A DNA stretch of 45,895 nucleotides from Lysobacterales bacterium. GTDB taxonomy: Bacteria > Pseudomonadota > Gammaproteobacteria > Xanthomonadales > SZUA-36. Both the position numbers and the translations under genes were made by a program. How positions within the stretch are numbered: the stretch's first letter is position 1; each line of letters opens with the position of its first letter. The DNA is taken from contig JABDJL010000196.1 of NCBI GenBank assembly GCA_013002505.1, positions 1 to 45,895 of the forward strand, read 5' to 3'. Positions 14,280-24,491 of this stretch are shown one piece after another. The notes beneath the pieces are model-generated. The model was not told where the DNA came from and did no database searches. It worked only from the letters and a program-made list of their open reading frames with translations.

Positions 14280-14909
14280 TTATTCAGTACCGGAGCTGTA
14301 CAGACCCTGAACATAGCTTGAAACCGCCGCGATCTCTTCATCAGTCATCTCTTCAGCGACACCATTCATGATCTTGCTGAGTGCATCTTCCTCGCCCCAG
14401 TTCTCTCCAGCGCGATAGCGGGTGAGCATTGATGCCGTGTAGTCAGCATGCTGGCCTGCAAGAACCGGGTACCCGGAAAGCGGATTACCCTTTCCGGCCG
14501 GACCATGGCAAGCCATGCAGGCCGGGACACCGGTTTCGGCATTGCCGGCGCGATAAATTTTTTCACCCAGCGAGACCAGGGCCGGGTCAGCAACCGCAGG
14601 CGCTGCCTCCTGGCTGGCGTAATAGGCCGCCAGGTTATCCATGTCCTGCTCGCTGAGCATTGCGGAAATGCCGGTCATCTGCGCGACAGGCCTGGCATTG
14701 CTCTTGATCAGCCTCAGGTGACGCGCCAGGTAGGCCTCGTGCTGGCCAGCCAGCTTCGGCCACACTGAAACGGCACTGTTGCCGTCAATCCCGTGACAGG
14801 CTGCACACATGCTTGCTTTTTCAGCGCCCGACGCGATATCACCATCAGACAATGCAGGCGTGGCGGCAAACAAACCGAGCAGCAGCGCGCTCTTTATCAA
14901 AAGCTTCAT
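14280..14909 (-). CDS. Dihaem cytochrome c4
   Basis: A protein of 209 residues. It has a signal peptide (MKLLIKSALLLGLFAATPALS) followed by two homologous cytochrome c domains with haem motifs CAACH (Cys35, Cys38, His39) and CMACH (Cys131, Cys134, His135). Each is followed by a conserved PKLAGQHEAYL or PVLAGQHADYT segment and a distal methionine region. This is the periplasmic electron carrier of the cytochrome c4 family that passes electrons to terminal oxidases. The ATG at 14909 has a GGAG eight bases upstream (14918-14921); the longer frame to 15164 would cross the divergent engB. Gene order engB, cytochrome c4, dsbA is conserved in related bacteria. Confidence 0.93.
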   Translation of the reverse strand: MKLLIKSALLLGLFAATPALSDGDIASGAEKASMCAACHGIDGNSAVSVWPKLAGQHEAYLARHLRLIKSNARPVAQMTGISAMLSEQDMDNLAAYYASQEAAPAVADPALVSLGEKIYRAGNAETGVPACMACHGPAGKGNPLSGYPVLAGQHADYTASMLTRYRAGENWGEEDALSKIMNGVAEEMTDEEIAAVSSYVQGLYSSGTE

Positions 14910-15014
14910 TTCAGGTTCTCCGAGAATGTGTAAGTATATTGACCGCAGCGGGGCGCTATTATCCCGCTTCGAACCGCACACTTCCAGCCACCCGGACAAT
15001 ACAGGGACCCCGCG

Positions 15015-15638
15015 ATGAGCCAGTACAACCCTTTTCGCTCTGCGACATATGTGCTGGCAGCGCATCACCTGCGGCAATTGCCGCCCGATGAGGGCATCGA
15101 GGTCGCCATTGCCGGGCGATCGAATGCTGGAAAATCCAGTGCGCTGAACGCCCTGACCGGGCAAAAATCACTGGCCAGAACCAGCAAGACGCCCGGCCGC
15201 ACACAGCAGATCGTGATTTTTGACATCGGACCCGGTCTGCGCCTTGCTGACTTGCCCGGCTACGGCTATGCCAAGGTGGCAAGATCACTGCGGGAGCACT
15301 GGCAGGACGTCATGCAGGTCTATTTCGAGTCGCGCCACAGCTTGCGCGGCGTTGTGCTGGTGATGGATATCCGCCATCCCTTAAAGCCGTTTGACCAGCA
15401 GATGCTGGCCTGGTGCACTGCGTCCAACATCCCCTGTCACCTGTTGCTGACCAAGGCGGACAAGCTCAAACGGGGGCCGGCGCTGTCTGCCCTGCAAAGG
15501 GTTCGCAATACGCTGCCGCCGGGCGCCACCGCGCAGGTCTTTTCGGCCACAGCCCCGCTAGGCGTGGACGAACTGGTCAGGAAACTTTGCCAGTGGTATG
15601 AACTGACCACGGACAAGCCCGGCAGCGGCGCGCAATGA
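15015..15638 (+). CDS. engB: Ribosome biogenesis GTP-binding protein EngB/YsxC
   Basis: A protein of 207 residues, a small TRAFAC GTPase. The G motifs are in order: GRSNAGKSS (P-loop, about residues 34-42), TPGRTQ (G2), DLPGYGYAKV (G3), TKADK (G4) and FSATAPLG (G5). EngB proteins are needed for assembly of the large ribosomal subunit. It is read divergently from the cytochrome c4 gene, with 105 bases of shared upstream sequence, and is followed 32 bases later by hemB. Confidence 0.94.
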   Translation: MSQYNPFRSATYVLAAHHLRQLPPDEGIEVAIAGRSNAGKSSALNALTGQKSLARTSKTPGRTQQIVIFDIGPGLRLADLPGYGYAKVARSLREHWQDVMQVYFESRHSLRGVVLVMDIRHPLKPFDQQMLAWCTASNIPCHLLLTKADKLKRGPALSALQRVRNTLPPGATAQVFSATAPLGVDELVRKLCQWYELTTDKPGSGAQ

Positions 15639-15658
15639 TAGAATTCGGCCATGCTTGA

Positions 15659-17481
<1,823 letters not shown>

Positions 17482-19078: not shown

Positions 19079-19216
19079 GGTTCGAATATCCACCTGTTTA
19101 CTCCTGTGACCCGGTCTTCAACCGGACGGTTCCACTTGCCTGTATCATGGCCTCTGCATTCAGTATGCTCAGCATATCAGATCACCCGAACGTGGACGCC
19201 TGCGCGAGATCAAGCC

Positions 19217-21910
19217 ATGAGTGACAACGAAAAACAGGGCAAAAAGCTCTACCTGGTCGACGGTTCATCTTACCTGTACCGGGCTTTTCACGCCCTGCCC
19301 AACCTGACCAATTCGGCCGGCGAACCTACCGGGGCGTTACTCGGCGTGGCCAACATGCTGCGGCGGCTGGTACGCGAAGCCGATGGCGCACCGGTGGCGG
19401 TGGTGTTTGACGCCAAGGGCCCGACTTTTCGGCATGAGATGTATGCCGAGTACAAGGCCAATCGTCCGCCGATGCCAGATGAGTTGCGCAAACAGGTGGA
19501 GTCCATTCATGAGCTGGTCCGGCTGCTGGGACTGCCGCTGGTCCAGGTTGAAGGCGTGGAAGCCGATGACGTTATTGGCACACTTTCCACGCAGGCCGGA
19601 ACCCAGGGGATCGAATGCGTGATTTCGACCGGGGACAAGGACCTCGCGCAACTGGTTGACGAACACACGACGCTGGTCAATACGATGAGCGAAACAACGA
19701 TGGACCGTGACGGCGTGGCCGAAAAATTTGGCGTCACTCCGGAGCAGATTGTTGACTACCTGGCGCTGACCGGAGATAAATCCGACAACATCCCCGGCGT
19801 CGAAAAATGCGGTCCCAAGACCGCCGCCAAGTGGCTGGCCCAATACGGCAGCCTCGATGAAATCATGGCGCATGCCGACGAATTTGGCGGCAAGATCGGT
19901 GAGTATCTGCGAGATGCACTGGATATTTTGCCTTTGTCGCGAAAGCTGGCCATGATTCGCACCGATCTCGACCTGGATTGTGCCCCCGGCGATTTCAGCA
20001 CCGAGGAACAGGACGAAGAAGCACTCCGGACGTTTCTCCAGCGCTATGAGTTCAACAGCTGGCTGAAGGAACTGGGCGAAGGCGAGGCGCAGCAGGAAAC
20101 GCCGGTGGACTACTCGATCATCCTCGACCAGGATGAACTCGATTCGTGGCTGAAACGGCTCGCCGCTGCAAAGCTCATTGCCTTCGACACGGAGACTTCC
20201 AGCCTCGACCCAATGCAGGCCGAGCTGGTGGGCCTGAGCTTTGCGATCGAACCGGGAACGGCGGCCTACGTGCCGCTGGCACATGATTACACGGGTGCGC
20301 CCGGGCAGCTCGATCGCGATGCGGTGCTGAAGAAATTCAAACCTCTGCTCGAAGATCCGACCGTAGGCAAGGTTGGCCAGCATTTCAAATACGATATGAA
20401 TGTCCTGTCCCTGTATGGCATCCACGTTCAGGGCGTGGCGTTCGACACCATGCTCGAATCGTATGTCTTCAACAGCACCGGCAGCCGGCACGACATGGAT
20501 TCGCTGGCGCTGAAGTACCTGGGCAGGCAAACCACCCATTACGAGGATATTGCCGGCAAGGGCGCCAAGCAGATTTCATTCAGCCAGGTGGACATAGAAA
20601 CGGCCGGCCACTATGCCGCTGAAGACGCTGATATCACCCTGCAATTGCACCAACACCTGTGGCCGAGACTGCAGGAGACACCGGAGCCGGCAAAGGTGTT
20701 TACGGACATCGAGGTGCCACTGATACCAGTACTGGCCAGGATGGAACAGACCGGTGTTTTGATCGATGGTGACCTGCTGGCCAAGCAAAGCCGCGAAATG
20801 GCGCAACAGATGCAGGATCTTGAAAAGCAGGCGCACGAGGAGGCCGGCCAGCCTTTCAACCTGGGCTCTCCCAAGCAATTACAGCAAATCCTGTTTGAAA
20901 AACTGGAACTGCCGGTCATCCGCAAAACCCCGAAGGGGCAGCCCTCCACGGCCGAAGATGTTTTGCAGGAACTGGCGGGCAAGTATCAACTGCCAAAGCT
21001 GATCCTCGAGCACCGGTCCCTGTCTAAGCTCAAATCCACGTATACAGACAAATTGCCCGGGCAGATCAATCCACGCACCGGACGTGTGCACACGTCCTAT
21101 CACCAGGCGGTTGCGGCCACCGGCAGGCTGTCTTCGTCAGGACCCAACTTGCAGAACATCCCGATCCGAACCGAGTTGGGCCGGCGCATCCGCAAGGCTT
21201 TTGTCGCCCAGGACGGCTACCTCGTACTGGCAGCGGATTATTCGCAGATCGAACTGCGCATCATGGCGCACCTGTCGGGTGATGCCGGATTGCTCGAGGC
21301 GTTCAAGAAAGGTGTGGATATCCACCGGGCTACCGCCGGCGAGGTGTTCGGCAGCGAATACGATGATGTCACGCCAGAGCAACGCCGGGCCGCCAAGGCC
21401 ATCAACTTCGGGCTGATGTATGGCATGTCCGCATTCGGCCTGGCGCGCAACCTCAATATTGAGCGCGGCGAAGCCCAGAAGTACATGGATACCTATTTCG
21501 ATCGCTACCCGGGTGTCGCCGAATACATGGAATCCACGCGCAAGCTGGCGCGTGACCAGGGTTATGTAGAAACGCTGTTCGGCCGCCGTTTGTACCTGAA
21601 TGAGATCAATGCCAGCAACATGCAGCGCCGCCAGGGTGCAGAGCGTGCGGCCATCAACGCGCCCATGCAGGGCACCGCCGCGGACATCATCAAGCGCGCA
21701 ATGATCACGGTAGACGCCTGGTTACAGGACAGGCACCAGGACACGCTGATGGTCATGCAGGTTCACGATGAACTGGTGCTGGAAGTACCGGAATCGAAGC
21801 TGGACCGGGTGCGTGACGGTGTCGTCGAGCGCATGTCGGCCGCCGCCGAGCTGGATGTTCCGTTGGTGGTAGATGCCGGACACGGGCCGGACTGGGATGC
21901 GGCGCACTAG
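19217..21910 (+). CDS. polA: DNA polymerase I
   Basis: A protein of 897 residues (E. coli 928) with all three domains. The 5'-3' exonuclease domain fills about residues 1-290 (YLVDGSSYLYRAFHALP, VEADDVIGTL, GDKDLAQLV, LTGDKSDNIPGV). The 3'-5' proofreading domain has the Asp-x-Glu pair (FDTETSSLD, Asp324 and Glu326), and the polymerase domain has motif A DYSQIELRI (Asp674), motif B RRAAKAINFGLMYG and motif C QVHDELVLEV (Asp851). It acts in Okazaki fragment maturation and repair synthesis. The ATG at 19217 matches the family N-terminus; the frame is open further up but through the divergent promoter region. Confidence 0.97.
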   Translation: MSDNEKQGKKLYLVDGSSYLYRAFHALPNLTNSAGEPTGALLGVANMLRRLVREADGAPVAVVFDAKGPTFRHEMYAEYKANRPPMPDELRKQVESIHELVRLLGLPLVQVEGVEADDVIGTLSTQAGTQGIECVISTGDKDLAQLVDEHTTLVNTMSETTMDRDGVAEKFGVTPEQIVDYLALTGDKSDNIPGVEKCGPKTAAKWLAQYGSLDEIMAHADEFGGKIGEYLRDALDILPLSRKLAMIRTDLDLDCAPGDFSTEEQDEEALRTFLQRYEFNSWLKELGEGEAQQETPVDYSIILDQDELDSWLKRLAAAKLIAFDTETSSLDPMQAELVGLSFAIEPGTAAYVPLAHDYTGAPGQLDRDAVLKKFKPLLEDPTVGKVGQHFKYDMNVLSLYGIHVQGVAFDTMLESYVFNSTGSRHDMDSLALKYLGRQTTHYEDIAGKGAKQISFSQVDIETAGHYAAEDADITLQLHQHLWPRLQETPEPAKVFTDIEVPLIPVLARMEQTGVLIDGDLLAKQSREMAQQMQDLEKQAHEEAGQPFNLGSPKQLQQILFEKLELPVIRKTPKGQPSTAEDVLQELAGKYQLPKLILEHRSLSKLKSTYTDKLPGQINPRTGRVHTSYHQAVAATGRLSSSGPNLQNIPIRTELGRRIRKAFVAQDGYLVLAADYSQIELRIMAHLSGDAGLLEAFKKGVDIHRATAGEVFGSEYDDVTPEQRRAAKAINFGLMYGMSAFGLARNLNIERGEAQKYMDTYFDRYPGVAEYMESTRKLARDQGYVETLFGRRLYLNEINASNMQRRQGAERAAINAPMQGTAADIIKRAMITVDAWLQDRHQDTLMVMQVHDELVLEVPESKLDRVRDGVVERMSAAAELDVPLVVDAGHGPDWDAAH

Positions 21911-21943: not shown

Positions 21944-22585
21944 ATGTCCGATACAGGAACGATCGTCAGCTGGAAACCAGGTCGCGGTTTCGGCTTCATC
22001 AGGCCCGACCAAAATGGTAAAGATGTTTTCGTTCACATCAGTGCGTTCCGGCGCGACACCAACCCGACCGTGGGTGACCGTGTCCACTACAAGGTCACCA
22101 GGGATGATCGCGGCCGCATTCGCGCCGAGCAGGTGCGCAGCAAAGGCAAAAGGATATCGATCAATTACCGGTCGTGGCTTCGGCCCGCTGTCGCTACATC
22201 CTTTTTGCTTATCCTGGCCTGCCTCGTTTACTTGAATATCTATCCATTGGAAATGCTTTTCCTCTATCTGCTGGCAAGCCTGGCGTGTTTTGTTGTTTAT
22301 GGGTGGGACAAGTGGTCAGCGCGAAGAGGGGCATTCCGGGTCAGCGAAATAAATCTGCATTTGCTTGCCATTTTCGCTGGTTGGCCCGGCGCCTTGTTTG
22401 CCCAACAGGTATTTCGCCACAAGTCCCGAAAAAAGTCATTTCAAATCAAGTTCTGGATCACGGTTTTATTGAATTGCGCGATACTTACCTGGTTGCTTAC
22501 ATCCAGCGGTAAACCATTTGCCGTATACCTGTTTGATTTTTTGCGAGAAGTTCTGAACTACCTCGGTCTCAACCATCTTTTTTGA
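21944..22585 (+). CDS. Cold-shock domain fused to DUF1294 membrane domain
   Basis: A protein of 213 residues. Residues 1-68 form a cold-shock domain (GTIVSWKPGRGFGFIRPD, DVFVHISAF, VGDRVHYKV) with the RNP-type aromatic residues that bind single-stranded nucleic acid. It is joined to a C-terminal membrane domain of the DUF1294 family (YLLASLACFVVYGWDKWSAR, SEINLHLLAIFAGWPGALFAQ, HKSRKKSFQIKFWITVLLN) with about four membrane segments. The fusion is known in proteobacteria, but its function is not. It lies 33 bases after polA and is followed by a noncoding region with hairpins and a terminator. Confidence 0.88.
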   Translation: MSDTGTIVSWKPGRGFGFIRPDQNGKDVFVHISAFRRDTNPTVGDRVHYKVTRDDRGRIRAEQVRSKGKRISINYRSWLRPAVATSFLLILACLVYLNIYPLEMLFLYLLASLACFVVYGWDKWSARRGAFRVSEINLHLLAIFAGWPGALFAQQVFRHKSRKKSFQIKFWITVLLNCAILTWLLTSSGKPFAVYLFDFLREVLNYLGLNHLF

Positions 22586-22610
22586 AACTTTTTGCCCCCC
22601 CACCGGGTCT

Positions 22611-22745
22611 TAGTTTGCAGGCTGATTCCTTATCAGCCCAGGCCTGTACCCCTCCCTGGACAGGCCGCCCAATGGGTTCGGTCAGTCCCCCTTTGTATGC
22701 CGAATCCTTTTTTAAGCCCCGCGGCTTGCTGCGGGGCTTTTTTTT
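22611..22745 (+). ncRNA. Candidate small RNA with C/U-rich hairpin loops, downstream of polA
   Basis: Between the cold-shock gene stop (22585) and a strong terminator there is no credible reading frame, but successive hairpins are seen. The first is a 7-bp stem at 22620-22626/22632-22638 with loop TCCTT. The second is a 7-bp stem at 22641-22647/22660-22666 with a 12-base loop ACCCCTCCCTGG. The third is an 8-bp stem (one G-U pair) at 22674-22681/22700-22707 with an 18-base loop containing TCCCCCTTT. The terminator hairpin follows. Loops of this kind are complementary to Shine-Dalgarno sequences. The 5' end and promoter are not determined: a TTGAAA at 22582-22587 could be a -35 box, but no good -10 is spaced from it. 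Alternatively the region is a long structured 3' UTR of the cold-shock gene. Confidence 0.4.
22714..22745 (+). terminator. Strong intrinsic terminator
   Basis: A perfect 9-bp stem (AAGCCCCGC/GCGGGGCTT) with an 8-base loop is followed by a run of Ts at 22738-22745. It ends transcripts of the plus strand from the polA/cold-shock gene or from the candidate small RNA. It is about 130 bases after the last stop codon, unusually far for a simple gene terminator. Confidence 0.88.

Positions 22746-23001: not shown

Positions 23002-24491
<1,490 letters not shown>

Follow-up and report, generated by a model that had tools for sequence, protein, structure and literature searches.

The DNA downstream of polA in this Lysobacterales bacterium raises the question of whether a small RNA (sRNA) is encoded there as a gene of its own and, if so, what controls that RNA and what its loops may bind. 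The window that we analysed, a stretch of 45,895 nucleotides, carries polA (DNA polymerase I) at positions 19217..21910 of the plus strand, with a Pfam DNA_pol_A match of 546 bits and both exonuclease domains; the ATG at 19217 was taken as its start, while the open reading frame reaches upstream to a GTG at 19106. The gene that sits between polA and the putative sRNA gene (21944..22585, plus strand) encodes a cold-shock domain (CSD, 46.6 bits) fused to a DUF1294 membrane domain (79.9 bits), and the convergent neighbour on the other side is hemF (23002..23928, minus strand; Coprogen_oxidas, 440 bits). An engB/yihA-like GTPase gene (15015..15638, plus strand; motif GRSNAGKS) and hemB (15671-16666) were identified by eye from the translations of their open reading frames, and together with cytochrome c and aroE-like genes, also identified by eye, they occupy positions 14280-17481, 2-5 kb before polA. 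The polA-engB-hemB neighbourhood thus appears to be kept but rearranged, engB being near polA and yet not adjacent to it.

Reading and folding of the sequence confirmed that three hairpins with C/U loops stand in series at 22620-22707 on the plus strand, as a preliminary description of this DNA had claimed. Hairpin 1 (22620..22638) has the loop UCCUU (TCCTT at 22627-22631), hairpin 2 (22641..22666) has the loop region ACCCCTCCCTGG at 22648-22659 (RNA loop ACCCCUCCCUGG) and hairpin 3 (22674..22707) has a loop with TCCCCCTTT at 22686-22694 (UCCCCCUUU in its RNA form). The strong terminator that had been placed about 130 bases past the last stop codon was found as well; it is an intrinsic terminator at 22714..22745 on the plus strand, made of an 11-pair stem (22714-22739) and T8 up to 22745, and its distance from the stop codon at 22583-22585 is about 129 bases. 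The minimum free energy of the element was -64.7, compared with -46.8 +/- 3.7 in dinucleotide shuffles (z -4.87), and one of 200 shuffles folded equally well. When the sRNA body was shuffled 1000 times, 5 of the shuffles had three C/U hairpin loops complementary to Shine-Dalgarno (SD) regions.

Reading of the opposite strand showed the GGA motifs (AAGGA and AGGGA) in its loops that had been pointed out earlier, and these could speak for a sponge RNA of CsrA/RsmA transcribed in that direction. However, the fold of the minus strand is weaker (z -2.8, compared with -4.9 for the plus strand), a terminator-like match was found at the element on the plus strand only, as the preliminary description had also held, and the promoter motif described below and the T-run of the terminator are both on the plus strand. 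The minus-strand sponge was rejected because of its missing terminator and its weaker fold, and we give it next to no probability.

Immediately before hairpin 1 stands the motif GAAACTT-N17-TCTTA (22584-22612), which the preliminary description had missed. Promoters of the sigma-E/AlgU type have the form GGAACTT, 16-17 bases, TCNNA. The putative -35 element, GAAACTT (22584..22590, plus strand), overlaps the stop codon of the cold-shock/DUF1294 gene (22583-22585) and is separated by a 17-base spacer from the putative -10 element, TCTTA (22608..22612, plus strand); the same motif is found in the same place in relatives. A scan for sigma-70 promoters found none. With 22584-22612 read as the promoter, the RNA itself would correspond to about 22618-22745 on the plus strand, with a predicted length of about 128 nt and a transcription start expected at about 22617-22620. 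The span of 22586-22745 given to the sRNA in the preliminary description thus holds for the hairpins and the terminator and does not hold for its 5' part. The genome has an rpoE gene (323 bits) with rseA and rseB next to it downstream, and a sigma-E-like motif (TGAACTC-N16-TCACA) is located upstream of rpoE itself; Hfq is also present. The exact pattern GAAACTT-N16-18-TCTNA occurs at 6 sites in the genome, compared with 1 in the reversed control. From the promoter motif and the presence of rpoE, rseA and rseB, we infer that sigma-E drives the putative sRNA gene.

Plain DNA similarity gave just one clear relative of the element besides its own genome. Searches with polA gave 80 loci for comparison, most of which carry a similar downstream element in which a short hairpin is followed by one with a ACCUCCCU loop, a CCCC hairpin and a terminator. 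Because the MAFFT alignment of all groups (A1, A4) misaligned hairpins 1 and 3, we trained a covariance model, R1, on the subset A3, which aligned well and comprises 19 elements from the polA-downstream regions of other genomes, chosen partly with the promoter pattern and with the window excluded, and this model was then used to reach the remaining elements. The training alignment had 96.3% paired cells, and two-sided changes were present in 14 of its 29 pairs (0 of 500 shuffles; 2-5 in slid controls). The covariance search of homologous polA-downstream regions that had been proposed in the preliminary description was thereby carried out, and R1 found the element at 22628-22743 with 29.8 bits and an E value of 5.5e-6, as its sole match in the 46 kb of the window, and at E 3.6e-4 as its only match in the genome of the element, both E values being rough since the calibration was short.

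The compensatory changes in the stems that the preliminary description had expected among relatives are present, both in the training alignment and in a set of 48 elements, in which 27 of the 29 pairs had two-sided changes and the score was 0.564, compared with 0.183 in shuffled and less than 0.1 in slid alignments, the alignment of the 48 being fitted to the structure. CUCCC was found in 47 of the 48 rows by a string check of whole rows, a few of these occurrences falling outside loop 2, and the strongest conservation in the family is that of the CUCCCU core of the hairpin 2 loop. Such a pattern, in which the stems vary freely and the loop stays fixed, is typical of loops that have a binding partner. 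The earlier claim of an sRNA gene with anti-SD loops at polA is well supported by this conservation in relatives, by the strong covariation and by the invariance of the loop.

Of the 274 class genomes that were sampled, 105 had an R1 match at E<=0.01 (rough E values from a short calibration), the class being taken as the Gammaproteobacteria of GTDB with the former Betaproteobacteria included. Of the best 30 R1 loci, 26 have polA or engB, recognized by motif, within about 1 kb. Tandem copies are present in several genomes, with four in G309 (G309:C33:13150-13906) and three in G401 (G401:C3:217555-218299). Loci with tandem copies include L169, L165, L173 and L185.

A sigma-E-like pattern precedes 52 of 67 elements, compared with a mean of 0.7 of 67 for shuffled sequences and 3 for the reverse strand. 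Since the 19 training elements were picked partly by their promoter pattern, the fair count is that of the elements found by the model only, of which 33 of 48 have the sigma-E-like motif upstream when about 0.5 would be expected. Roughly one in three of the elements that the model found lacks the strict pattern, many of these being near misses, and in the tandem arrays several copies have a sigma-E-like motif of their own. Two strong R1 matches, L162 and L163 (in G411 and G302), lack the sigma-E pattern and have a different, conserved-looking upstream region, which suggests a promoter switch in one family. Another site in the genome of the element (L140, G000:C156:189-217, minus strand) combines a near-identical promoter, GAAACTTTTTTGCCCTCCGCCGGGTCTTA, with a long hairpin after it, whose loop carries CUCUCCCUC; it adjoins a peptidyl-prolyl isomerase-like gene, gave no match to R1 and is possibly a second, candidate sigma-E-driven anti-SD RNA.

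Comparison of the loci also bears on whether the hairpins are mere 3' untranslated region (UTR) and terminator of the polA/cold-shock mRNA, with no separate RNA gene, as could be supposed from the location of the element directly 3' of the upstream stop codon and from the terminator at its end. However, the cold-shock/DUF1294 gene is not conserved at this site and is missing or replaced in relatives, while the element and its promoter stay. In five related genomes (G034, G025, G019 and G010, which belong to one genus, and G006; loci L144, L146, L147, L148 and L153), which represent two genera of the family, the element and promoter moreover have, as one unit, the reverse orientation with respect to polA; wherever polA was seen beside the inverted element, the two are on opposite strands, and the inversion in G025 was deduced from the orientation shared with hemF. 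This inversion argues for a gene of its own rather than a cold-shock 3' UTR, and the sigma-E-like promoter placed exactly before hairpin 1 argues for an independent gene rather than a part of the cold-shock mRNA. The loops are also more conserved than the stems, which would be needless for a mere terminator. We consider the 3' UTR explanation very improbable. Judged from these sequence comparisons, the element is a conserved structured RNA, independent of polA and of the gene upstream.

At gathering thresholds, no Rfam family matched anywhere in the window. Below threshold, the families that match the element best are mostly sRNAs with C/U loops, namely ncS54 (RF02871; 33.6 bits, gathering threshold of 43 not reached), anti-hemB (RF02837; 29.8 bits, 49.5 not reached), sX13 (RF02232; 23.5 bits and E 0.014, 50 bits not reached) and the toxic sRNA of Betaproteobacteria (RF02278; 23.5 bits, 50 not reached). 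Alpha-r7 (RF02342) gave 14.1 bits on the element for a cut-off of 60. The Alpha-r7 sRNAs of alphaproteobacteria resemble the element in their polA locus, three stem-loops and C-rich motifs, according to the passages of PMC3771888 that deal with them.

The sX13 RNA of Xanthomonas campestris pv. vesicatoria, which the preliminary description did not name, is likewise found downstream of polA and has three hairpins with C-rich loops, a terminator and no long single-stranded target domain. Its loops contain 4C, 4C and 5C, whereas those of the element are UCCUU, CCCCUCCCU and UCCCCC, and it has a promoter of the Xanthomonas type, CGAACC...TATA, whereas that of the element is of the sigma-E type. 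This RNA was described as exclusive to Xanthomonadaceae (PMC3771888). When the order was scanned with RF02232, one family proved to have true sX13, with scores of up to 136 bits, and in another the scores graded down to 35-55 bits; we read these two families as Xanthomonadaceae and Rhodanobacteraceae. The polA-downstream elements of Rhodanobacteraceae score up to about 54 bits on RF02232 (L045, 54.3, which makes this element sX13 in Rfam terms) and 19-50 bits on R1, and therefore connect sX13 with the R1 group; R1 also matches Xanthomonas-type sX13 loci weakly (22-30 bits). At the latter loci, the sigma-E pattern is lost or changed to the diverged promoter, so that control by sigma-E cannot be assumed for all relatives. 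The Burkholderia RNAs anti-hemB and ncS54 share a CCUCCCU loop and a terminator with the element, but their models have fewer hairpins (two); the anti-hemB cut-off was passed by 3 of 20 tested loci of the R1 group, taken class-wide. The nearest known relative of the element is sX13, with anti-hemB also among the closest, and the element is a putative sRNA gene that resembles sX13 in kind without belonging to the sX13 family proper.

The locus of the element also invites comparison with Spot 42 (spf) of Escherichia coli, whose gene lies between polA and engB/yihA, and with ErsA of Pseudomonas aeruginosa, a polA-engB sRNA that is induced by the envelope-stress sigma factor sigma22/AlgU and acts on envelope functions, e.g. 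oprD (PMC8575079). The element combines an ErsA-type position, with engB near polA though not adjacent, and a promoter that is of the AlgU/sigma-E type by motif, and it might accordingly be a diverged member of Spot 42 or of ErsA proper. However, the polA-spf-yihA region of E. coli holds nothing that R1 matches at E<=10, and in two genomes that PrrF marks as Pseudomonas-like (their identity is uncertain) R1 found nothing linked to polA. The published description of ErsA has two stem-loops that flank a U-rich pairing domain (PMC8575079). Spot 42 has no structural match to the element and gave no Rfam match on it, and it differs in its regulation and in its Hfq-dependent mode (PMC3771888). A weak R1 match in G410 is not linked to polA and was taken as chance. 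The analogy with Spot 42 and ErsA drawn in the preliminary description thus stands for the polA-engB position, while homology with Spot 42 was rejected since R1 has no match at the E. coli locus, and membership of the element in either family seems distinctly unlikely to us.

We put at roughly three in four the probability that the element is an autonomous sRNA gene driven by sigma-E, whose C-rich loops are predicted to repress mRNAs by anti-SD pairing. Envelope damage would lead to the destruction of the anti-sigma factor RseA, upon which sigma-E (RpoE) would start transcription at the 22584-22612 promoter and yield the RNA of about 128 nt, and this RNA would fold into the three hairpins and the terminator. 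Its exposed C-rich loops, above all CCCCUCCCU, would mimic the anti-SD end of 16S rRNA, and loop 2 (CCCCUCCCU) and loop 3 (UCCCCC) would pair with the AGGGAGG/GGGG SD leaders of a set of mRNAs and thereby block ribosome loading, as for sX13. Pairing of the loops with mRNAs is what we infer by analogy with sX13, which represses mRNAs by the pairing of its C-rich loops with G-rich motifs at the ribosome site, does so independently of Hfq in the effects that were tested and becomes more abundant at high salt and at 37 C (PMC3771888). The loop mode of sX13 taken together with the sigma control of ErsA suggests that the sigma-E response has an sRNA arm. A search for CAGGGAGG-N3-9-ATG gave 14 start sites of mixed functions, among which no functional theme was found, and 0 sites with the reversed pattern, which is an unfair control for ribosome sites.

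The anti-SD sequence of 16S rRNA is ACCUCCUUA, and the loop ACCUCCCU resembles it. The CUCCC loops might therefore mimic the 3' end of 16S rRNA, titrate SD regions broadly and slow growth like the toxic small RNAs of RF02278, with which the element has its weak match of 23.5 bits and which inhibit growth in E. coli (PMC5688073); the tandem copies in some genomes would also fit. The RF02278 cut-off is not reached, however, and the targets of sX13 form a defined set of mRNAs (PMC3771888). We regard such a general ribosome mimic as unlikely and retain the sigma-E-driven sRNA that represses a set of mRNAs as our reading.

The authors of the work on sX13 asked whether the polA loci of other bacteria encode sRNAs that act likewise (PMC3771888). 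The first half of this question, the existence of polA-locus sRNAs beyond Xanthomonadaceae, receives a positive answer for much of the class, and the sigma-E-type promoter is a common control signal that makes their function testable. In the literature that we searched, a sigma-E-type promoter was not found described for RNAs of the sX13 kind, a tie between sX13 and RpoE was not found beyond one co-mention, and sX13 and ErsA were not found mentioned together. We propose tentatively, at slightly worse than even odds, that the gammaproteobacterial polA locus (in the wide sense of GTDB) ancestrally carried a sigma-E-driven sRNA with anti-SD loops, of which sX13, anti-hemB and the element would be descendants, ErsA and Spot 42 being either highly diverged descendants or later occupants. 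If this is true, the ancestral polA-locus sRNA would be a non-coding arm of the envelope stress response, and RNAs that were named separately, such as sX13, could be studied as one group. In enterics, MicA and RybB provide the repressing side of the response to envelope stress; if our reading of the element and its relatives is true, many little-studied gammaproteobacteria would use an anti-SD RNA in that role.
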